Assembly (NCBI GenBank): GCA_023205875.1 | Contig: CP060771.1 | Location: forward strand, 124,001 to 188,000 | Length of the DNA stretch: 64,000 bases | Origin: Chloropicon primus | Taxonomy: Eukaryota; Chlorophyta; Chloropicophyceae; Chloropicales; Chloropicaceae | Direction: 5' to 3' | Part shown: positions 2,515-62,344 of the stretch, in pieces | How positions within the stretch are numbered: position 1 is the first letter of the stretch | Layout: every line of letters begins with the position of its first letter | Program-made: the position numbers and the translations under genes | The notes under the pieces: model-generated | Told to the model about the DNA's origin: nothing | Databases searched by the model: none | The model's input: only the letters and a program-made list of their open reading frames with translations

Positions 2515-5478
<2,964 letters not shown>

Positions 5479-6060
5479 GGTGGTACTGATCAATACTGAT
5501 CGATCGTCAAAAGGGATCGCCGGGGGGTTTGAATGAAATTGATCGTGAGACGTTGCACAAGAGGCGGAAGAGGTGAGGAAGGCCAAGGGATTGCCTCCGC
5601 TTCACAAGGTGATCGACGCCATGAAACGGAGCATGTGAGCATCCTATGGAAAGAGAAGAGAAGGATCTTTCGATCTATTCCACCTTTAACCCGCCTTGCT
5701 TTCGTCTTCTGGCATCGTACACGGGGCAAAGTGTAAGTAACGTCTCACGATCAATCGAGAGGTCGAACGTCCGTCCTCGAATGGAGCTGAAATTCGTTGA
5801 GGTCTCTGGGCTTCAAACACACGGAGAGGGAACAGACGACAGCTCGGATAGGTTTGCTCGCTTCGGTTTGGAACGCGTTTCGGCGACGGGAGCGCGACGT
5901 TGGGAGGTCGAGGTTGGCATCACGCGAAACTAAGCGTCGAGACCTTTCCGTGGACGGGTCGCTCGAACGATTTGAGCACTTGACTCCATTTACGTTGCCC
6001 ATTCTTTCGTTCTTTTGCAGAGAGAAAGAGAGAGAGAGCATTGGTATTGCTGCTTGAGCC
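5479..6060. other. Divergent promoter region, CDC48 / GBP-like gene
   Basis: No separate gene is seen. It contains GATCGTGAGACG at 5541-5552 (minus orientation, toward CDC48) and CGTCTCACGATC at 5741-5752 (plus orientation, toward the GTPase gene). The segment before 6021 reads TTGACTCC...TTTTGCAG, a plausible 3' splice site of a 5'UTR intron for the plus-strand gene. Confidence 0.45.
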
Positions 6061-8046
6061 ATGCCGTTCCTCGGGTTCCCTTCGCCGTTCAAGGGCACCG
6101 CGACGAGGACGAGGACGAGGGCGTCCTCCGCTCCTGACGGAGAACTTGGTGCAGACGCGACGACGCTGTCTTCATCATCTTCTTCTTCTTCTTCATCATC
6201 ATCTTCAACAACTTTGGAGCCCCTGCAGTTGGTGGAGCTGAGCGAAGGGAGGTTCGTGGTGAACGCGGAGGCTCTGGACGTTATTCGTAACGCCGAGGGG
6301 GACGTTGCCGTGATAAGTTGCTGCGGGAGGTCGAGGCAAGGCAAGAGCTTTTTGCTGAACAACCTGTTGAGGAAGATGTTCGAGGTGGGAGAGGACGAGA
6401 CGTTTGGGGGGTTCAGGACCTCGGGGTCGACCGAGCCTTGCACCAAGGGGCTGTACCTGTGGCCGGAGGCCCTGACCGGGACCAAGGACGGCAGGAAGCT
6501 CAGCGTGTTCCTGGTGGACTCGGAGGGGATCGACAGCTACGACCAGACGACGAACTATTCCGCGGAGATATTCTCCATGGCCATCCTCTTGTCCTCCGTC
6601 TTCGTGTACAACAGCATGGGAGCGATCGACGAGAGCGCCATCGACAAGCTTTCTCTGGTCTGCGAGCTCACCAGGCTCATCAGGAGCACCGGCGGGGACG
6701 TGACAGAGGAGGGGGACACGAGCGACGAGATGCCTTCGCTGATCTGGCTGCTTCGAGACTTTTTCCTGGACTTCGAGGACGGCTCCGCGGAGGAGTACCT
6801 GGAGAAAGCCCTGCGCACCTCGTCCTTGAACTCGTCCTCGGGCGCGAACTCCGTCCAGCAGGAGCAGAGGGACAGCATCAGGGAGGCCATCAAAGGCTTG
6901 TTCCCGCAGAGGGACTGCCTCGCCATGGTGAGGCCCCACACCAGCGAGAAGTGCCTTCGAAAGTTGGACGCCCTCAAGTCGTCCGAGCTGAGGGAGGAGT
7001 TCAGGAACGGGGTCGAGAGCCTTTACCAGAAGATACTCGACCAGGTCAGGCCGAAGAGGTTCGGGGACAGGCGCCTCGACGGGCCCATGCTCGCCAGCCT
7101 GGTCGAGCTCTACGTCAAGGCCATCAACGACGGTGCGGTGCCGACCATCGCCTCGGCGTGGCAAGGCGTCGCCGAAATGCAGTGCCAGAAAGCGGTCCGT
7201 GGCGCGATCGAGATGTACAGGGAGGGGCTGGAGAGCTCTCAGGTGAGAGCCAGTGAGGTCGCCATGAGGAGCCACCACGAGGACATGCTTGGGGAGGCCA
7301 TGGTCGTGTTTGACAAAATGTGCGCGGGCGGCTCGAGGCTGAGATCGACCCACAGGAACGAGCTGGTGGGCGAGCTCAAGGAATACTTCGAGGGCTACAA
7401 AGCCAGACGGTACCTGGAGGCAGAGATCTCGTGCCTCGATAGCCTGAAGGACGCGGAAGCGAGGATGAAAGACCTCGTTCAGGAATCCAAGGACGCGGAG
7501 CTTCAGGAGTGGATCAAGGGTTTTGTGGAGGACTACTCGGCCAACCAAGAAGGCCTGAGCAAATTCGACCTCCTGTGCAAGTTCCTCCTGACTTGCATGG
7601 AGACCCTGGTCTCGGAAAAGGGGGCGAGCCAGAGAGGGGAAGTGGAGGACCTGGAGAGGCAGCTGGCGGGGCTCAAGGAAAAGCACTCCAGTGACATGGT
7701 CAAGAAGGAGGCTGCCATGGCGACATTGAAAGAAGTTCTCCTCACCGAGACCCAGAGCGTGAGAATCATGTTGAACCGGGAGAAGGCGAGGAACAAGAGG
7801 CTCGCGGTGAAGGCAGACACTTTGCAGAAGCAGCTCGAATCTTCGAACAGCAGCGTGCAGTGCTCCGCGGAGATCGTGGACAGGTGGGCAAAAGAAGCCG
7901 CGATGGCAAATTCTGAGCTGAAGACTCCGCCGAAGCAGCAGCCCCCCCTCGACATGATTGAAACGGGCGACGATCCCGTGAAGACCCTCTGCAGCAAATT
8001 CAAGACGACTTCCATGAGGGACATCACAAACCATAACGGCAGCTGA
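6061..8046 (+). CDS. Guanylate-binding-protein/atlastin-like large GTPase
   Basis: A 661-residue dynamin-superfamily GTPase. It has a Ser-rich N-terminus with a poly-Ser run, then a GTPase domain with P-loop CCGRSRQGKSFLLN (about 87-100), switch and G3 region FLVDSEGIDSYDQ (about 152) and the GBP-type G4 replacement LLRDFF (about 230). A long all-helical C-terminal region follows, with a predicted coiled coil at about 500-610. No C-terminal CaaX box or transmembrane pair is obvious, which favours GBP over atlastin. Animal GBPs act in defence and membrane remodelling, but the role in an alga is unknown. It is convergent with ChlD, with 90 bases between stops. The start has a probable 5'UTR splice site 40 bases upstream. 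Confidence 0.85.
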   Translation: MPFLGFPSPFKGTATRTRTRASSAPDGELGADATTLSSSSSSSSSSSSSTTLEPLQLVELSEGRFVVNAEALDVIRNAEGDVAVISCCGRSRQGKSFLLNNLLRKMFEVGEDETFGGFRTSGSTEPCTKGLYLWPEALTGTKDGRKLSVFLVDSEGIDSYDQTTNYSAEIFSMAILLSSVFVYNSMGAIDESAIDKLSLVCELTRLIRSTGGDVTEEGDTSDEMPSLIWLLRDFFLDFEDGSAEEYLEKALRTSSLNSSSGANSVQQEQRDSIREAIKGLFPQRDCLAMVRPHTSEKCLRKLDALKSSELREEFRNGVESLYQKILDQVRPKRFGDRRLDGPMLASLVELYVKAINDGAVPTIASAWQGVAEMQCQKAVRGAIEMYREGLESSQVRASEVAMRSHHEDMLGEAMVVFDKMCAGGSRLRSTHRNELVGELKEYFEGYKARRYLEAEISCLDSLKDAEARMKDLVQESKDAELQEWIKGFVEDYSANQEGLSKFDLLCKFLLTCMETLVSEKGASQRGEVEDLERQLAGLKEKHSSDMVKKEAAMATLKEVLLTETQSVRIMLNREKARNKRLAVKADTLQKQLESSNSSVQCSAEIVDRWAKEAAMANSELKTPPKQQPPLDMIETGDDPVKTLCSKFKTTSMRDITNHNGS

Positions 8047-10410: not shown

Positions 10411-10457
10411 CTCCTTCGCGCGCCTCTGCCGAACGAACCACGAACCGGAATCTTTCG

Positions 10458-10489
10458 ATGGAGACACCGTTGGAAAGATCGCAAGACGC
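10458..10489 (-). promoter_or_regulatory. Promoter-like element, upstream of ChlD
   Basis: On the minus strand it reads GCGTCTTGCGATCTTTCC followed by AACGGTG, the shared element, 48 bases before the proposed ChlD ATG. Confidence 0.5.
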
Positions 10490-11444
10490 ACTTTCGTTTG
10501 ATCCGAGTCTATTCACGAGTGCGTCCCTCTGTCGTCGTCACCAGCTCGATCAAGCCGCGCCTCTCCAACCAAGCCCTGCGCCCTGGACCAGGACGTTCTA
10601 TCCAGAAGTGGGTTTCTGGATAAGAGAGGTGCCGTGTTTTACGATACTTCTATCATAGAACAACGTGGACGATCTTTTCCAAAATCGGGGAATAGAAACG
10701 TCTCCCACGGGAACATTTTCCACCAATCAAAATCGTTTTCGTCATTTCGAATGTAAAGGGTCTGGATTGAGTGTACACGAGGAAGGCCAGTTTTCCACGA
10801 CGGAGCGCGTCTCGACGACTTTGGTGCGTCGTGTTTGGCGGACGCTTGGCCTCGTGCAAGAGGTTTTCGTCGACGTTGAGGCTTATCTATCGAAATATCG
10901 TCTCAAGAGGATCACGTAGGTGTCTCCATCGAAAGATTTGGTTCCTGTTTGAGGATTTGCGACACGTTTTGTCGTTTTGCCTTGCCTCCTGGCCCACGGA
11001 TGGATGGTTTTGTCGAGGGAGTCAAGGGAGTCAAGGGGAGGGGGACGGAGGTGAGGAGCGGTGATTGGAAAGATAACTTCACGAGAATCCCATCGCGCAC
11101 CCGCACGATCGAAGCGACGATCTGATGGATCCAAGATCTTGAAAACACTCCGACACTTTGCTCCGGCCTGGTCTCTGGAGGAGAGGCAGACCAGGCGGAC
11201 ACACGGTATCGCGATTCCCTCCGTCACTCGAAGACACGGATCCATGGACGCCCCTCGACGATCCGGCGCCTCATTCCCTCCCTCCCTCTCTCTCGAAAGA
11301 TCGCTCTCGTAACGGCTTTGGTCGTCGTCATGTCATGGGGGACCACCCCTGCTTGCTTGCTCGGCACTGACTCGAAGCGTTTGGTCTTCGTTCTTGGTCT
11401 TCGTTGCCCCAGTGCCCATTGCCAGAGGTGATGCGCCAGAGGTG
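10490..11444. other. Intergenic region and probable 5' leader of the RING gene
   Basis: No gene recognised. A block ACGATCTTTTCCAAAATCG at about 10671-10689 resembles the shared element in plus orientation. Just before the RING ORF, CACTGACTCG followed by a pyrimidine-rich stretch and CCCCAG (to 11412) or TTGCCAG (to 11425) looks like a 3' splice site, so a 5' exon may lie in this region. Confidence 0.45.
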
Positions 11445-15125: not shown

Positions 15126-15630
15126 AGCGGAGCCCCGCCATTCAATGCACATTGCTTTTCTTTACGACGTGCTCACGCAAGACGGGTGGAAGCCAACAGG
15201 TTATAGACCTCGAAGACAATCCTCCCCACCGAAGAACTAGACTCAGTGTGACCGTTTCAATGGAAGATCGCCCTCAAATGCTTCGAGGGAGGTGTCGACC
15301 GAAAGATGAAGGGACGAAGCTTCGGGCCTGCTGCCCCTCCCTTGCCTCCCCCTCCCTCCCCGACGCCTGGATCCATCCCCCATCATCACAGCAATCCCTC
15401 CCAAAGCAAGCAGATCCAGAGATAAGCCATCCGCTTCAATGGAAGATCGCCCTCAAATGCTTCGAGGGAGGTGCCGACCGAAAGAAAAAGGGACAAAGCT
15501 TCGGGCCTGCTGCCCCTCCCTTGCCTCCCCCTCCCTCCTCCTCCTACCTCAACAACAACAATCACTCGAGCCATCTTTCGCGCGCTTTTCTGGGCTGGGC
15601 TGGATCTCACAACAATTCCTCTCTGCTGCG
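15126..15630. other. Intergenic region with a direct repeat
   Basis: Gap between two plus-strand genes. Most of it is the direct repeat listed separately, and the last 90 bases are CT- and CA-rich leader sequence. No gene is seen. Confidence 0.6.
15258..15540 (+). repeat. Direct repeat, unit 179 bp, two copies
   Basis: CAATGGAAGATCGCCCTC starts at 15258 and again at 15437, and about 100 bases match with a few changes (TGTCGACC/TGCCGACC, GATGAAG/GAAAAAG). Each copy begins with a fragment like the shared promoter element (GGAAGATCG). It lies upstream of the gene at 15631. Confidence 0.85.
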
Positions 15631-18174: not shown

Positions 18175-18302
18175 CTTTGCCACCTACGTCAACTAAACTC
18201 AACCACGCTCCTTCCTCTCTTGGCTCTTGGCTCTTGGCTCTTGCTCCGAAGAATGAATGTTCGAAACCTCCAGGTCTGGCCCTTCCTCGAGTCGAAATGG
18301 GT

Positions 18303-18336
18303 CAAGCGAACACTCGTTGGAAAGCTCGCGAGATGC
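18303..18336 (-). promoter_or_regulatory. Promoter-like element upstream of MAK16
   Basis: On the minus strand GCATCTCGCGAGCTTTCC followed by AACGAGTGTTCGCTTG. It is the shared element, 130 bases before the MAK16 start. An adjacent plus-orientation half copy, GATGCTCTTTCCGATGATC, starts at 18332 and faces the hydrolase gene. Confidence 0.5.
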
Positions 18337-23390: not shown

Positions 23391-23450
23391 GCCTGGATGC
23401 AGCTTGCTCTATCGAACCGTCCTTCCTCACCACAGCGTCTCTTCTTCCAA

Positions 23451-23480
23451 GGAAGGGCTCTTTCGAAAGAGCAAGAGACG
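23451..23480 (-). promoter_or_regulatory. Promoter-like element upstream of the acidic orphan
   Basis: On the minus strand CGTCTCTTGCTCTTTCGAAA followed by GAGCCCTTCC, with the palindrome GCTCTTTCGAAAGAGC, 61 bases before the ATG at 23390. Confidence 0.5.
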
Positions 23481-23609: not shown

Positions 23610-23790
23610 GCGAGGCTCATCGATGGCATGGATAGTGGATGCCGAGGAGGGGGAGGAGGAGAGGGGAAGAGGTGGGGTATTGATGGATGGATGCATTGTC
23701 TCTTGCTCTGTCCAAAGAGCCCTCGCTTGCAAAGAATAGCGTGGAGGAAGGGCATTGATGGTGCTGGTGCTGGTGCTGGTGCATTGATGG
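23610..23790 (+). repeat. Single copy of the 184-bp repeat family
   Basis: Matches the tandem array at 50765-51275: GGATAGTGGATGCCGAGGAG, the GAGGAGAGGGGAAGAG block, TATTGATGGATGGATGCATT, the promoter-like core (CTGTCCAAAGAGCCCTCGC here) and GTGGAGGAAGGGCA followed by GGTGCTGGTGCTGGTGC. Confidence 0.8.
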
Positions 23791-24002: not shown

Positions 24003-25470
24003 TTAGCTTCCTCTGTAGGTGCTGTATCCGAAGGGGGAGTACAGCAAGGGCACATGGAAGTGCTGGCGCGTCTGGTCTGCGCCGATCTCGAAAACAATCG
24101 AAGCATTTGGATAGAAACCGAGCTTTCCTCCGCACTCGGCCGTCTCGTAGTGTCTGGTATCGAAAGAGATCTTGTAAATGCCAGAAGCGACCGTGGCAGA
24201 AGGTTGAAGCAACTGACCAGACCTTCCATCGCCGTTGGTCACGTCCTTGCCCACCAAGTCCCAGGCGTCCTTGCTGCAAGGCATCAGCCTCTCCAATTTG
24301 ATGGGCACGTTCATCGCTGGCCTTCCGTTGGCGATGTCGAGAACGTGGCTCGTGACGGGAGACCTCAAGTTGGCGCCACCTTATTGTTTTTTTTTCGCGT
24401 TTTGCGGAAGAGGGAAACAAAGTAAAAAGCACCCAGGCGAGGGTCGCTGTCAGTTTCACTCAAGCCGACGTTGCAGAGTCGCCCGAGTTCACACACACAC
24501 ACACACCACACGTACCCCCCGTGATGTGCGCAAGAATTTTCCCTGTCCGATTGACCCAGGTCTTCTCACCTTGCTCCTCTTGCTTCTGCTCCTCGGGGAA
24601 AAAGCTCGGAAAGAGCTTGCTCAACCTGAGCTCCGTGATCTTCATCTGCTCGATAGCAGCGTTCTGCAGCTCGTGAGAGGCGCTGTTTCCGTACCTGGTG
24701 GCGCGCACCGTCGCAAGGATAAAATAATTCGGTTGGTCAGCGAACGAACAAAGCAAGCAAGCGCATCTCGAGAGACAGTGCGGGCAAATGAGAAGGGTGC
24801 CAGTGGGACCTACCTCTCCTTGAGAGCGTGAAGCACCTCGTCTGCCTTCTTGCCGGTCGCAAAAATGATGAAGATGAAACCATGCTTATCAAAGTATCTG
24901 TCATTCCACTCCTTGAGTTCCTCCAAAGTCGTGGAGGTGCTCGAGGCCATAGCAGCGCTCTGCTCGTTGCTACAGAGCTCTTCTGTTGCCTGGAACTTCT
25001 CCTTCAGTTGGCTCACGTCCTGAGCAGCGCAAACAAACAAGGCAACACCGGAAGCGAACGCCATGCTCGAGTCAGTTTCAGTTTCCACCCACCAGAAAAC
25101 AAGCACAAGACAGGGAGAGAGATGATGTGATGCGAAGACGTACTCCTATGCGAGGATGAGCCTTGAAGGCTTCCAACCAATCGGCCACGCTGCAGTCATT
25201 CCACCAGACACCTCTAGCAGCACTCAGCACACCTAAGCAAGCAAAGCGAGCAAAGCGAGCACGTTCAGTTCAGTCTCTCACTCCCTGCGAGGCACGCTTC
25301 GACCGATGGCTCTATGGAAAGAGCATCGAGAGAGGGATCCATCCACCACCACCATCATCGCCTCCCCTTCCCTTCCTCTCACCTTCCTTGTCCACAAAAG
25401 GTCCCATCTTGGCCACCAGTTGCGACCATTGCTCTGACCCACAACACTTGTACAACTCCGCTGCGTTCAT
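24003..25470 (-). CDS. Allantoin synthase: OHCU decarboxylase-HIU hydrolase fusion (TTL), 5 exons
   Basis: Bifunctional enzyme finishing urate degradation: HIU hydrolysis and OHCU decarboxylation to S-allantoin. Exons 25383-25470, 25144-25232, 24814-25019, 24570-24694 and 24003-24379 join in frame to 294 residues. The N-terminal domain has YKCCGS, DWLEAFKAHPRIGD (catalytic His), SNEQSAAM, FGFIFI-like HGFIFIIFATGKKADE and NSASHELQNAAIEQMKI. The C-terminal transthyretin-like domain has TSHVLDIANGRPA, TNGDGRSG, ISFDT, HFHVPLL and terminal YRGS. It parallels the plant protein closely. The plant PTS2 peroxisome signal (R-L-x5-H-L) between the domains is not visible and no PTS1 is present, so a cytosolic form is possible. 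Introns carry CTGAC branch-like motifs. Confidence 0.92.
25301..25332 (-). promoter_or_regulatory. Copy of the promoter-like element inside intron 1 of the allantoin synthase gene
   Basis: On the minus strand CTCGATGCTCTTTCCATAGA followed by GCCATCGGTC. It lies in intron 1, downstream of the start codon, so it is either an intronic enhancer, an internal start or a non-promoter copy. Confidence 0.4.
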
Positions 25471-29841: not shown

Positions 29842-30700
29842 GTTGTCCTCACTCACTCCACTGGAGGACTGTCTCTCTCTCTCTCTCTCCAAGCCAAGAC
29901 CAGCTGTGGAGCAAAGATTTCAATTTTCGTCAAAACAGGTGGAAGGAAAGGCGCCCCACCGACGTTTCCAGCGGTTCTCTACCCTCTGAACCGCTTCCCG
30001 CCTCCCCAATCGGCGAAGGCTTGCCCTATCGAGAGCCTTTCCGAACTCAAAACTGTGAAACAGGGACACAAAAAGTGACCAAACAAGGTCTCAATCAGTT
30101 GCCAAGTCTTCACCACTGGGCCAAATCATTCAAGCGACGGCTCTTTGGAAAGATCGCGACATCATGCTTCTGCGCATTGGTTTCCTTTTCGCATCCTCCC
30201 GCCTTCACTGTCTTGAAACATACCTTGAAGCCCCTCTGATGGACCACCTCTCCCTCCCCTCTGATCTGATGCTAAAAGAAAAAGTTTTTGGACGAGGCTG
30301 CGATTTTGGCGCGATTTGATAACTCTGCAGAGAGAGAGAGAGGAAGGTGGTGAGGAGGGGACAAGGTACTGAGACTCTGGCACAATGTGGTGTAATCCAA
30401 TGACAATCCTCCCTGCTTTTGCCCCTCTCCTTCTCCCTCTTCCCTCTGTACACACACACACAGACACAGACAGAGAGAGGATGATGAATGAGGGCGATGG
30501 CGATGGCGACGTCGACTAGGATGGGGAGGAGGTCTCTTTTCTATTTTTAATCCATTGGCAATGCTCGCGTGGGCAGATCGCCTTCCTCGTGTCGTGTGCA
30601 TGTCATCCCGTCGGTTCCAGTCCCGCAAAAGAGAATAGTTGTTAATTGTAACATGGTATGGTTATTCAAGCTGCTATTGTACAACGCGGTCGCCCCCGCT
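29842..30700. other. Intergenic region, TON1/FOP upstream
   Basis: Contains the promoter-like element at 30131-30162, (CT)n and (GA)n tracts near 29871-29888 and 30330-30341, and a (CA)n tract near 30450-30470. No credible gene. ORFs on both strands lack conserved features. Confidence 0.55.
30131..30162 (-). promoter_or_regulatory. Promoter-like element, best match to consensus
   Basis: On the minus strand GTCGCGATCTTTCCAAAGAG followed by CCGTCGCTTG. It lies 290 bases upstream of the TON1/FOP start, leaving room for a 5'UTR intron. Confidence 0.55.
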
Positions 30701-43155: not shown

Positions 43156-43794
43156 CCGCCTCGAACCAAAGCCCCCCTCCCCCTCCGCAACACCAACACC
43201 TTCCCTCTCTGCTCACCCAAGTGATGCGGAGGCACAAGGCAACTGATGCCGGAGACTTGGTTGCTCAAATGAGTCAACTAAGGTACCTTTGGAAAGATCT
43301 CGGAGTCTACTTTCCTGTGATGCTGTGTATTGCCTCCTCTGCTCCCTTTTGTCGCCGATCCTTGGCCCAAAACCTCAGCCTCCTTTCGACTCGACCTCAG
43401 ACTGGAAATTAATGGGCGAGCATGGGCGAGCACTTCAGAGAGAGGCCCTCCAGTGCAGAGCGGAGCGGATGGCCGAGTGAGTCCAAGCGCCAAGAAGATG
43501 ATGGAGGGGGAGGATCACCATCAGGGGGGGTACCGTGGCACACCAATCCTCTCCCCTGATGGTGACATTCACCTCACCTCTGAACCTGTCTACGAGTTCT
43601 TTGAGTTGTTGAAGACGGTCAGTGGAGTCGAGTTGACGACAGGGGTTTGTTGGCAAGGTTGTGTGTGTGTGTGTGGTTTGAGGTTGTCTGTGTTTATAAT
43701 GGTGATAGAAGATTAATTCTTGCTTGGATACGATCCCTTTGACGGAGGCTGTAGCTGCCTCCCCCCCTCCCTTCACTGCTTGGCAACAAGAGCT
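43156..43794. other. Gap between aminotransferase and orphan genes
   Basis: Holds the promoter-like element, a palindromic-looking GGGGAGGATCACCATCAGGG / CCCCTGATGGTGACATTCAC pair (43507-43573) that could fold into a hairpin, and a (GT)n run near 43659-43676. No gene is seen. Confidence 0.5.
43275..43307 (-). promoter_or_regulatory. Promoter-like element upstream of the aminotransferase
   Basis: On the minus strand CCGAGATCTTTCCAAAGGTA followed by CCTTAGTTG, 120 bases before the ATG at 43155. Confidence 0.5.
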
Positions 43795-47993: not shown

Positions 47994-48939
47994 ATTGTTT
48001 GCAGCAGTCCTCCTGCTGGTTCCTCCTCAACCTTCTTCTTCTTCTTCTACTGCTGCGTGCAAAGCCTACGAAAGTTTTGCAGACAAGCCGGTCAACACAC
48101 TTCAGCACCTCCACCTCCACCTCCTGCCTTGTCTCTGTCTCTGCAGAGAATGCTTTGAAGAATGCAGTTGCTCACCACTCCAGGAGCCCTTGAGCTGGGT
48201 TCCAAGGTGAAGTCTTTGCTCAAGCTTGACACCCTTGCTGGCCTCTCTGCCACTTGGGCCACTAGCTCCACCCTTGCACCTCCCTCTCCGGCACCGAAGC
48301 CACCAGTAACAAGCACAAGGATAGGCTGAAGACAGGACCACCTTGGACCAAAGTCAGTTTTTCCAGCACTCCTTCCTCAATACCGAGCCAAACTTCACAA
48401 GCGACTGGTCTTTGGAAAGACGAAGACTTGTTACTTGAAGCCCTGGCCTCCTTTTGAGCCCCAGTACCGGTTCTGTGGCGCTCTTCCTCGCGTTTGACCT
48501 TACCTTTGGCTCACTTGTTGTCGACCAAGATGATGTCCAACCGTTCCCGAGTCAATAGTCAAATTAAGAAGGAAAATCCACTTGGGCGAAAAAGGCAGGA
48601 TCTTGAGAGGAAGGAAGGAGGGGGAAGAGGGGTACATCGAAAAGAGTTCCATCCGTTATCATCCATCATCGTTGGGTTCGTTCGTTCCTCGCTTCCTTCC
48701 TTCCTTCCTTCCTTTGGCTGGTTCATCGATTCATTGATTCATTTTGGTTGCTTGCTCGGTGCGTAGAGAAAGAGAAGGATCCACAAGAAGAGGAGAAGAG
48801 GGACAGCATCGCCGGAGCAGAGGAGGAAAGTCCTTTCCTTCCGGCCCTCTTTCCTGGCTGGGCGATCAAATGCCCTCGAGGCATGGCGGTCGTGGTGGTG
48901 TCTTGTGATGTAATACAGGAGGGGGTAGGAGGAAGGACA
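47994..48939. other. Intergenic region, CNB gene upstream / FYR gene downstream
   Basis: Contains the promoter-like element at 48398-48427, a (CTT)n run near 48029-48045, CTTC repeats near 48692-48712 and (ATTC/GATT) near 48727-48744. No credible gene. Confidence 0.5.
48398..48427 (-). promoter_or_regulatory. Promoter-like element upstream of the CNB gene
   Basis: On the minus strand GTCTTCGTCTTTCCAAAGAC followed by CAGTCGCTTG, 400 bases before the ATG. A 5'UTR intron would bring it closer. Confidence 0.45.
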
Positions 48940-50558: not shown

Positions 50559-50614
50559 CTTCAACGTGTTGTTGATGATCACCACGAAACACGAAAGATG
50601 GACGCAATGACGTC

Positions 50615-50647
50615 GAGTGAGGTGTCTACGGAAAGATCGTGAGACGG
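50615..50647 (-). promoter_or_regulatory. Promoter-like element upstream of the FYR gene
   Basis: On the minus strand CCGTCTCACGATCTTTCC followed by GTAGACACCTCACTC, 57 bases before the ATG. Nearly identical to the copy at 584-616. Confidence 0.55.
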
Positions 50648-50764: not shown

Positions 50765-51275
50765 GATGGTGCTGGTGCTGGTGGATAGTGGATGATGATG
50801 ATGATGAGGGGCGGGCAGTGATGGCATGGATAGTGGATGCCGAGGAGGAGGAGGAGAGGGGAAGAGGGGTATTGATGGATGGATGCATTGTCGCTTGCTC
50901 TTTCCAAAGAGCCCTCGCTTGCAAGGATTGGCGTGGAGGAAGGGCACTGATGGTGCTGGTGCTGGTGGATAGTGGATGATGATGATGATGAGGGGCGGGC
51001 AGTGATGGTGATAGTGGATGCCGAGGAGGAGGAGGAGGAGACGGGAAGAGGTGGGGTATTGATGGATGAATGCATTGTCTCTTGCTCTTTCCAAAGAGCC
51101 CTCGCTTGCAAGGATTGGCGTGGAGGAAGGGCACTGATGGTGCTGGTGCTGGTGGATAGTGGATGATGATGAGGAGGAGGAGGAGGAGGAGGAGACGGGA
51201 AGAGTTGGGGTATTGATGGATGGATGCATTGTCTCTTGCTCTTTCCAAAGAGCCCTCGCTTGCAAGGATTGGCGG
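50765..51275 (+). repeat. 184-187-bp tandem repeat, about 3 copies, carrying the promoter-like core
   Basis: GATGGTGCTGGTGCTGGTGG starts units at 50765, 50949 and 51136. Each unit has a (GAT)n or GAGGAG run, TGGATGCATTGT, the core GCTCTTTCCAAAGAGCCC at 50897, 51085 and 51239, and GTGGAGGAAGGGCACT. The core reads on the plus strand in every copy. Related single copies are at 23610-23790 and, diverged and inverted, near 61895-61990. Confidence 0.95.
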
Positions 51276-52190: not shown

Positions 52191-52338
52191 CCTTTCTTTG
52201 CTTCGAGTGAGACCTCGCTGGAAGCATCAAGGGACGAGGGTTCGACCTGAGATCCTCATCACCAACGCCTCCAACCCTCTTGCTGTGGCAAGGAAAGCAG
52301 ATTCCGTTTCAGTCTCTCAAATCGACGCCATTTCATTC

Positions 52339-52370
52339 CAGCGAGGGTTCTTTCGAAAGATCAAGAGATG
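52339..52370 (-). promoter_or_regulatory. Promoter-like element, proximal copy
   Basis: On the minus strand CATCTCTTGATCTTTCGAAA followed by GAACCCTCGCTG, 150 bases before the ATG at 52190. Confidence 0.5.
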
Positions 52371-52526
52371 AGGAAGCCATCAATGCTTCCTCCTCTTCCC
52401 CTCGTGCTTATTGTCTTCTCTCACTCTCCTGTTTCGTTAGCATCCATGGGAAGCAAAAACCAGAACAGAATCACGTCTCCTCTTCACTCCTCTCCACCTC
52501 ATCTTCGTCCGAGCGTCATCCCTTTC

Positions 52527-52560
52527 GAGTGAGGGCTCTTTCGAAAGATCAAGAGATGAG
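52527..52560 (-). promoter_or_regulatory. Promoter-like element, distal copy
   Basis: Same core as the copy 188 bases away (CTTGATCTTTCGAAAGAGCC), flanked by the same GATGAGGAAGCCATC in plus orientation; the pair looks like a segmental duplication. Confidence 0.5.
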
Positions 52561-61018: not shown

Positions 61019-61894
61019 CTTGTCTCTCTTTCTCTAACGCCAGTCCCAGTCTCCTACTCGTCCTCTGCTCCAAAACGAAAACACGCGAGAGGAAAAATCC
61101 TTTCAGTCTCTCCATCCTCATGCGGACGCCATTTCCTTCGAGCGAGAGCTCAAACGAAAGAGGAAGAGGCGAAGATTTCAATTCCGTAGCCTCCCTTCGC
61201 GTCCTCCCCCTCGAACGCCCTCATTTCTCTCGTCCTTCACTCACCTTCGACTCCCTTTTGCTCTTTTTGCTCCCCAACGTGGAAAGGCAGATATTTTATC
61301 CTTAGCCGTCATCGACGAGAGAAGTTTAGCTCTTTTGTATTCGTTTGATGACGATCTGATAGCGATGCCCCAAGGGAGAGGAGATCGATCCGGAGAGAGG
61401 AAGACCCCGTCCTCCGATCTTCTCTTCTCTCCTCTTCCCTTCTCCTCTTCTCTTCTCTTCTCTTCTCTTCTCTTGCAGGGCAGGATTAGAGCGGGCTCGC
61501 TCCTGCCCCTTTCATCCTTTCCGGTTTTGTCTTGAACACCCAAAAGCTTGGGACAAGATGGATGGACGGATGCAAGGACCATGCCACGAGTCCCCGCGAG
61601 AGTCCTTCCTCCCAGGATTCTCCCTTCTCACTTTCCTTGGTGACCTCCATGATTCCCCTTCCTGACCCAGGCCAGAGAGAGACAATACATCCATCCATGC
61701 ATGATGCATCCATGCATCCATCCCCGCTCTCGCACTGGACGCCCGCTGAACCACCATTCCCACGCACGCCGAATCACCACCTCCCTCCTCCTCCTCCTCA
61801 TCACCATTGTTTCTACAACCTCTCTCTCTCTCTCTGTCTCTCTGTCTCTCTCACTCTCTCTCTTACCTCCCATCATCATCTAGGCACCGAAAGT

Positions 61895-61990
61895 GAGCAA
61901 GTGATGGCTCATTGGAAAGAGCAAGAGGCAATGCATCCACTCATCCAATCCCCCTCTCGCACTGCCTCCCCTCCTCGTCATCACTCTCAT
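61895..61990 (-). repeat. Diverged inverted copy of the 184-bp repeat family
   Basis: On the minus strand it has GGATGCATTGCCTCTTGCTC, then TTTCCAATGAGCCATCACTTGC, with a GAGGAGGGGAGG block upstream, matching the array at 50765-51275 in order but with many changes. Confidence 0.6.
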
Positions 61991-62174
61991 CACAACCACC
62001 ACCACCTCCGCCTCCTCCTCTGCTGGAGAATCAGCAGCAGTTTCGTTCTGATCCAAAAACCGAAACACACGACGACGACGACGACGACGTACGTCAAGGT
62101 GAGTTTGAGACACGAATTCGAGGACGAGGGCGACGCGCGTAACGGAAGTAACGTCCGTGGACGGAATCTTCGCT

Positions 62175-62205
62175 TCCTCCTCTTTCGAAAGACCCTCTCT
62201 GTGGA
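62175..62205 (+). promoter_or_regulatory. Promoter-like element upstream of the envelope protein gene
   Basis: CCTCTTTCGAAAGACCCTCT in plus orientation, about 145 bases before the ATG at 62345; the clearest plus-strand example of the shared element. Confidence 0.45.
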
Positions 62206-62344
62206 AAGATTGGGTCACCAAAAAGAAAATGAAAAAAAAAAACTAAAACGTTTGTTTTTCATGCTTTTTCATGGTTTTGCCATGCCTCTCTCTGTCTCTC
62301 TCAGTGCGAAGAAGAAGAGAAGCGCGAGGCCGAGGTCGAGGAAG

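Follow-up and report, generated by a model that had tools for sequence, protein, structure and literature searches.

An oriented, recurrent 45-bp element of gene 5' regions in Chloropicon primus as a candidate promoter-proximal regulatory sequence

In the tiny marine green alga Chloropicon primus, a sequence of about 45 bp recurs next to gene starts, and the copy at 50603-50646 on the minus strand of the stretch analysed here raises the question of what this sequence does and where it lies relative to the start of transcription. The stretch (C18:124001-188000, 64 kb, called the window; positions without prefix are counted from its first base) was drawn from the genome of strain RCC138, for which a passage in PMC12301720 gives 17,584,162 bases in 20 contigs (1,855,637 to 417,210) and 8,683 predicted genes. 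The original prediction had named twelve sites in the window as a core-promoter-like element with a 16-base palindromic core that points towards the downstream gene, and knew of no named algal core-promoter element with this sequence. We likewise encountered no description of it among the papers listed for Chloropicon and algal promoters, phased promoters and introners in the open-licence PMC literature, and two Chloropicon genome papers (PMC12301720, PMC6731263) make no use of the word 'promoter' in their main text.

A 44-column matrix was built on 314 kb of sequence comprising the window, 20 systematic 10-kb samples, one per contig at position 200001, and another five stretches of 10 kb, some of which were picked near hits. 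With the threshold set such that five order-5 Markov controls average 2 hits, the matrix returned 106 copies in the 314 kb; the element is thus real, far above chance and spread well beyond the twelve sites first named. Loosening the threshold to 10 expected false hits added only 2 copies, and a profile HMM found 104 copies at E<=1e-4, with the best control hits at E 0.13-0.14. Pattern searches gave the same picture. A 17-base core with <=3 mismatches had 14 matches in the window (0.25 expected), and with <=2 mismatches it had 124+119 matches genome-wide, against 1+3 for the reversed pattern. A 32-base pattern with <=3 mismatches had 173+188 (361) genome-wide matches (control 0+0), and a 23-base asymmetric exact pattern had 450 (control 1). 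Extrapolation from the samples suggests about 4,000 copies in the genome. One element pattern searched in viral contigs had 0 matches, and genes without a matrix hit showed little sign of degenerate copies.

In the window, 27 copies were scored by the matrix, 16 of them not named before; all ten minus copies named by the original prediction and the plus copy at 62175 are among the hits. The focal copy scored 39.3 and has none of four splice-signal classes around it. Minus-strand copies also lie at 572-615 (score 35.8), 30120-30163 (47.4, with the exact sequence CGATCTTTCCAAAGAGC), 52193-52236 (28.1) and 61887-61930 (36.4), and a weak plus copy lies at 10899-10942 (18.4).

The full consensus reads CGTCTCKYGATCTTTCSAWNGAnnCCTCRCTYGAAnnnWTTGGC, with its blocks at fixed spacing over 45 bp. 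Matrix columns 11-15 and 20 are nearly fixed, and columns 18-19 and 22-23 vary. The conserved part is the asymmetric CTTTCSAWNGA-n4-TCRCTYGAA-n3-WTTGG, and the 16-base palindrome, which had been named as the core, turned out to be only one variant. The element is preceded by SGAA at -8 to -5 and by a G-rich purine tract at -60 to -20 (copies scoring >=25, 87 of 106, for this and the interval analysis), and GGTGAGGAT often stands near +50 on its 3' side. Analyses of flanks, folding, periodicity, donors, acceptors and TATA-like sequences used copies scoring >=20, mostly away from contig ends (95 or 96), and merging of copies more than 80% alike left 87 or 88 non-redundant copies. Copies of the GGCTTTC type carry a second common block, approximately TTTGTCGAGGACTTTGTGCACGGACGG, at about -66 to -40 without a canonical donor (examples at L033:7299, L033:9158, L017:1518 and L019:1272). 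A structured RNA family was considered as an identity for the element and set aside: Rfam gave 0 matches in the window at gathering scores, and the consensus-fold test was uninformative, the consensus fold being empty for the element and for all 100 shuffled controls alike.

The position of the copies relative to genes was determined with gene calls from a simple in-house hexamer model, whose called starts are unreliable (one was shown to be wrong). Outside predicted coding segments, which make up 62% of bases, lay 105 of the 106 copies; by the strands of the flanking genes, 64 copies stand between divergent genes, 30 between tandem genes, 0 between convergent genes and 12 at contig edges. Where both neighbours were available, convergent intergenic space held 0 of 94 copies, compared with 505 of 6,357 random points in noncoding DNA. 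Pairs of copies on opposite strands and no more than 1 kb apart were outward in 38 cases and inward in 2 (all 106 copies), and of the two inward pairs one is 963 bp apart and the other uses a weak reverse reading (score 17.1) of a palindromic copy. Genome-wide, exact divergent patterns matched at 59 and 47 sites (100 of 118 matches listed for the first), and a single stricter convergent pattern (gap 200-230) at 0. An orientation-specific element of gene 5' regions, as first proposed, is supported by these counts. In the window, the focal copy is divergent to a plus-strand trio in tandem at 50889-50932 (score 49.2), 51076-51119 (53.2) and 51230-51273 (53.2). The minus copy at 23437-23480 (45.9) has its divergent partner at 23697-23740 (plus, 43.6), and a weak minus copy at 5621-5664 (18.2) is the divergent partner of the plus copy at 5933-5976 (26.4). 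The latter faces the GBP-type GTPase gene at 6061-8046. The sequence CGTCTCACGATC, named before as the site facing this gene, is present at 5741-5752 on the plus strand; it is not a matrix hit and lies 192 bp before the scored copy.

Several further copies stand 5' of recognisable genes: on the minus strand a weak copy at 5349-5392 (score 15.2; CDC48-type AAA gene), and copies at 18292-18335 (37.9; Mak16/L28e-domain gene, with a weak plus reading of score 22.3 at 18327 overlapping its edge) and 43264-43307 (30.2; aminotransferase gene), and on the plus strand the copy at 11279-11322 (21.8; RINGv gene). The minus copy at 10445-10488 (34.4) belongs to a Mg-chelatase/VWA-domain gene, whose called ATG follows at a distance of 35 bp. 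That each minus copy lies upstream of a minus-strand gene holds for most copies and does not hold for all: between tandem genes of the 314-kb sample, 17 copies point with the gene direction and 13 against it, and several of the latter belong to an outward pair as its far-side copy (such as the plus copy at 23697-23740 with the minus copy at 23437-23480). Likewise, the proposed spacing of 36-160 bases to the ATG fits the 23 of 49 genes with a called start whose nearest copy is at <=160 bp; in the others it is further away. A same-strand copy within 800 bp was present in only 28 of 93 testable genes, hence most genes manage without a strong copy. Between -320 and +60 of 70 first copies no TATA-like sequence was found, and A/T content peaks at -150 to -105 of first copies, which together fit a promoter zone centred between divergent copies.

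Whether transcription starts at the element or before it can be approached through splice signals. Aligned upstream sequences contain GTGAGTTTG and GTAAGG near -70, and a donor GGTRAG was present on the same strand at -100 to -40 in 31 of 87 non-redundant copies; controls gave 0 in the antisense direction over the same interval, 0 of 87 on the mirrored reverse strand and 3% in Markov sequence. In those 31 genes transcription should begin upstream of the element, which is probably a downstream, leader or leader-intron element and not the start site itself. Strict donors of first copies, binned at -100, -80 and -60, numbered 2, 16 and 4, and the stretch from -320 to -100 had none. With the donor window moved by +100 or +140 bp, 10 and 16 donors were still found, in part belonging to second units and to the GGTGAGGAT block; a move by -150 or -100 bp gave 6 and 0. 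Three copies of the window are clear leader-intron cases. The plus copy at 62171-62214 (score 27.5) lies in a predicted 206-nt intron at 62099-62304 (plus, CAAG/GTGAGTTTG ... tctctctcag/TGCG) and the minus copy at 48387-48430 (33.5) in a predicted 178-nt intron at 48326-48503 (minus, AAAG/GTAAGG ... CTGAC ... gtcttcag). The third, on the minus strand at 61128-61171 (47.0) 5' of a PEX11 gene, has a donor at -73 and a CTGAAA branch-like motif downstream. Minus-strand copies at 25289-25332 (26.6) and 52515-52558 (52.5) have, respectively, a donor-like GGTGAG 50 bp and a donor GGTAAGG 54 bp upstream.

Locus L025 has copies at 279 and 456, one in each of two consecutive predicted leader introns. 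The second of these introns ends 6 nt before MTMNAEELKQEGNALYK (L025:565). TPR families are matched by the frame of MTMNAEELKQEGNALYK (best E=1.2e-6) and again by a piece further along in this stretch. The called ATG of at least this one gene is therefore wrong, because leader introns precede the true start; the TPR gene start at L025:565 had been missed by the automatic gene call. For the first sequenced C. primus genome, a passage in PMC6731263 puts introns at 0.5 per gene and their mean length at 152 bp. Judged by the donors, about one copy in three lies in transcribed leader, and the full share is probably larger. It is not bound to introns and occurs inside or outside them.

These donors bear directly on the idea of a core promoter element, in which transcription would start within the element itself, at TCTTTC, which may resemble the pyrimidine initiator of Drosophila TCT/MTE/DPE promoters, followed by fixed downstream blocks, two copies then being two start sites one nucleosome apart. 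The Drosophila elements Inr/TCT, MTE and DPE are directional blocks at fixed spacing over about 45 bp in TATA-less promoters. The C. primus element shares with them its direction, the fixed spacing of short blocks over about 45 bp and the absence of a TATA-like sequence, and the close proximity of many copies to the called ATG agrees with such a role. Unlike the Drosophila elements, it stands 3' of splice donors in a third of copies and recurs at +182 bp. Canonical same-strand donors upstream of the element need a start still further upstream, and initiation within the element does not readily account for a copy that stands 182 bp into the transcript. Core promoter elements typically lie at -40 to +40 of the transcription start; the same donors speak against such a placement, this part of the original prediction is not supported, and we consider initiation within the element unlikely.

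An equally unlikely alternative to our minds is that the element acts in RNA, as an intronic splicing element of stereotyped leader introns composed of donor, G-runs, element, branch point and T-rich tract. The donors indeed cluster between -74 and -67, where 14 of the 32 positions listed fall, the G-rich tract lies at -60 to -20, branch-like motifs peak at +60 to +80 and T-rich tracts at +60 to +100. A branch-point-like motif is found downstream of 20 of 87 copies and co-occurs with the donor (15 of 31 copies with a donor, 5 of 56 without; p=9e-5); the association between donor and T-rich tract is weak (p=0.04). At least two of the three features were present in 22 of 87 copies, compared with 1.2% in controls. 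A splicing role would explain the intronic third of copies equally well as the reading we prefer. However, 56 of 87 copies have no GGTRAG donor, which speaks against both this role and a leader-intron placement for all copies, and in the GCTTTC-type sub-class donors were seen in 4 of 26. A strict acceptor test was negative (16 of 87 copies, 24% in the Markov control, the region being purine-rich), none of the 30 gaps that separate coding segments contains the element (splice-like ends are present in 13 of these gaps), and pairs of copies without any splice signal keep a spacing of 177-188 bp.

This spacing is the second regularity of the element. Intervals between same-strand neighbours cluster at 154-188 bp (26 of 48), and exact pair searches gave 8 matches at 120-150 bp, 132 at 151-181 bp and 97 at 182-212 bp, with 0 in reversed controls. 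After double readings and arrays had been merged into 156 groups (151-212 bp), 125 of these, among the matches listed, were at 173-194 bp with a mode of 182 bp; the histogram took in 100 of the 132 matches at 151-181 bp, so that this range is under-counted. Maxima among the matches listed were at 177-178, 182-183 and 186-188 bp, that is about 5 bp apart, and this comb (R=0.315 at period 5.25) was reached by 0 of 5,000 smoothed resamples. At longer distances we found 25 pair rows at 236-266 bp, 16 of which share an end with divergent pairs read through palindromic cores, and 20 at 349-379 bp, 8 of them in arrays also matched at 151-212 bp. Examples in the window are the minus-strand pair of first copy 15452-15495 (score 34.5) and second copy 15273-15316 (42.3), 179 bp apart and with plus-strand genes called on both sides, and the minus copy at 52327-52370 (49.4), 188 bp from the next one at 52515-52558. 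Seven pairs at 177-183 bp have a core identity of 0.50-0.59 (random-copy mean 0.555) and flanks near background; recent duplication therefore does not explain the distance of about 182 bp. Tandem duplication as its cause holds for recent arrays and was rejected for pairs whose cores and flanks are at background identity. Recent tandem arrays with a period of about 155-170 bp, shorter than the 182-bp mode, were observed at L022:6896-7714, C16:318341-319369 and C18:415468-416428.

A/T and G/C dinucleotides upstream of first copies (score >=20) show a periodicity of 10.2-10.4 bp that was reached by 0 of 300 shifted controls. Together with the 182-bp step, this suggests nucleosomes, a reading underlain by the usual position of the +1 dyad relative to transcription starts. 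The element might then be a nucleosome-positioning or barrier sequence only, with no direct role in initiation, in keeping with the 173-194 bp spacing, its comb and the upstream periodicity. No clear dinucleotide periodicity is seen at +90 to +165 (A/T p=0.29, G/C p=0.08), and the strict direction and 45-bp specificity exceed the needs of a positioning signal, and we regard positioning alone as very unlikely. Picoalgae that bear DNMT5 have linker CpG methylation, a periodic feature of about 180 bp near gene starts, and the C. primus spacing resembles it in both respects. CpG autocorrelation gave no 180-bp period and only one DNA methylase (PF00145) frame was found, of 423 aa at C1:613202-614275; on these two grounds CpG linker methylation was rejected. 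The PF00145 frame is perhaps Dnmt2, and cytosine methylation may be absent.

An old transposable or introner-like repeat family scattered by insertion is the least probable of the readings, highly unlikely in our view: correlated columns (41 of the 4,005 pairs of columns exceed the 99.9% null, and many of the 41 are neighbours), the recent tandem copies at L022 and longer divergent intergenic regions in copy-rich loci (median 1301 bp, n=26, against 708 bp, n=12) speak for it, whereas the avoidance of convergent and coding sequence, the outward orientation, the absence from the gaps between coding segments and an identity of about 0.29 in downstream flanks of unrelated copies, compared with 0.56 in the core, speak against it, the last suggesting that the core is held by selection. 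Introners, known from Micromonas and others, are many sense-oriented introns that share sequence (Huff et al. 2016 is cited for them in a passage of PMC12730881). They are near-identical whole introns, found in coding sequence as well. In the C. primus element, by contrast, similarity is centred on the middle, copies lie near gene starts and over half have no clear donor; an introner identity was rejected because flanks of non-neighbouring copies are near background and none of the coding-segment gaps contains the element.

The reading that we prefer, for which we judge the prospects to be evenly balanced, is that the element is a directional promoter-proximal regulatory sequence located downstream of the start, in the leader and often in a leader intron, nucleosome-stepped and acting in the manner of intron-mediated-enhancement (IME) signals. 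Short promoter zones, TATA-less and in many cases bidirectional, would have copies on their flanks that point outward in the direction of each transcript, commonly with a second copy about 182 bp further on. In copies that have no upstream donor, too, the start would lie upstream of the element. A sequence-specific DNA-binding factor could read the element at the +1 and +2 nucleosome positions, and once bound could make the promoter zone upstream of it accessible and boost or position initiation in the direction of the element, an effect on expression exerted at the level of DNA and comparable to that of IME signals in Arabidopsis. According to passages of PMC6760150, the activity of the Arabidopsis motif TTNGATYTG is confined to transcribed DNA close to the 5' end, scales with the number of copies and needs no splicing, and the motif can influence the start site. 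Plant IME signals and the C. primus element would have in common a place in transcribed sequence near the start, a single direction, presence in several copies and occurrence inside or outside introns; IME signals differ in being short scattered motifs instead of a 45-bp asymmetric element in a nucleosome-like register. At best, the element works like TTNGATYTG by means of a different motif, the IMEter motif TTNGATYTG itself being found in 0 of 87 elements. Five plant first-intron motifs are described in PMC8157754. One reported there, TTTCGA, is part of the core here and occurs in 41 of 87 elements, a number reached by 0.8% of permuted motifs. KCGAGAR exceeds permuted motifs but is about equally frequent in flank (11) and element (12), and the second IMEter motif, CGATT, as well as ARATCGA, GATTCG and ACYCYRA, is at chance level in the 87 elements.

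The copies are unevenly distributed over the genome. Across 20 chromosomes, pair density falls with chromosome length (Spearman -0.92, complete pair lists, merged), as does the density of 53 strong single sites (-0.75). Systematic samples plus L029 and L030 contained 8 copies for C1-C6 (80 kb sampled), 19 for C7-C13 (70 kb) and 38 for C14-C20 (70 kb); L031-L033 were excluded from density counts because they had been chosen around known hits or a hit-rich spot. Among the matches listed (100 of the 450 exact 23-base sites), C1 has 24 exact sites, every one of them past 937 kb, and C2 has 17, every one of them short of 849 kb, with a largest gap of p<5e-5 on C1 and 0.00015 on C2. Among these matches, the domains C1:1-937474 and C2:848097-1769006 contain no exact 23-base copy and other parts of both chromosomes are rich; one two-mismatch site, C2:887544, lies inside the C2 domain. 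Gaps on C3-C6 are not significant, and a uniformity test gave p=0.008 for C4 and 0.04 for C6. Copy density correlates with noncoding share (rho 0.58) and weakly and inversely with GC (-0.43; n=23). GC3 as a proxy for recombination was rejected as an account of the distribution (rho -0.04).

A wider version of the preferred reading, which we put forward tentatively and think more probably wrong than right, is a chromatin-phased downstream promoter system in which the 45-bp element, at the +1 and +2 nucleosomes, would drive initiation from the leader in certain chromosome domains only. The element would then stand on both sides of many bidirectional TATA-less promoters, and domain-restricted use of the system would let its density rise as chromosomes shorten. 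As a separate observation, genes in element-poor loci have an excess of TCGTAACG or GTAACG[CG] upstream, and so do those genes of rich loci that lack the element. The 8-mer TCGTAACG is upstream in 5 of 40 cases in element-poor loci (0.03 expected; regions such as L009-L030), and of 51 occurrences of CGTAACG/CGTTACG 35 are noncoding. The motif is possibly the site of another factor.

If the preferred reading is true, the control of upstream initiation by promoter-proximal transcribed DNA would become testable in a 17.6-Mb genome. In plants that question is open, and the signals described there are short, dispersed and difficult to detect. The C. primus element is long and easily recognised, numbers a few thousand copies by our estimate, and has a preferred orientation as well as a nucleosome-like spacing. 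Its confinement to parts of the genome is a second pattern that calls for explanation, and the element is a usable marker of gene starts in a marine algal class with few regulatory data.
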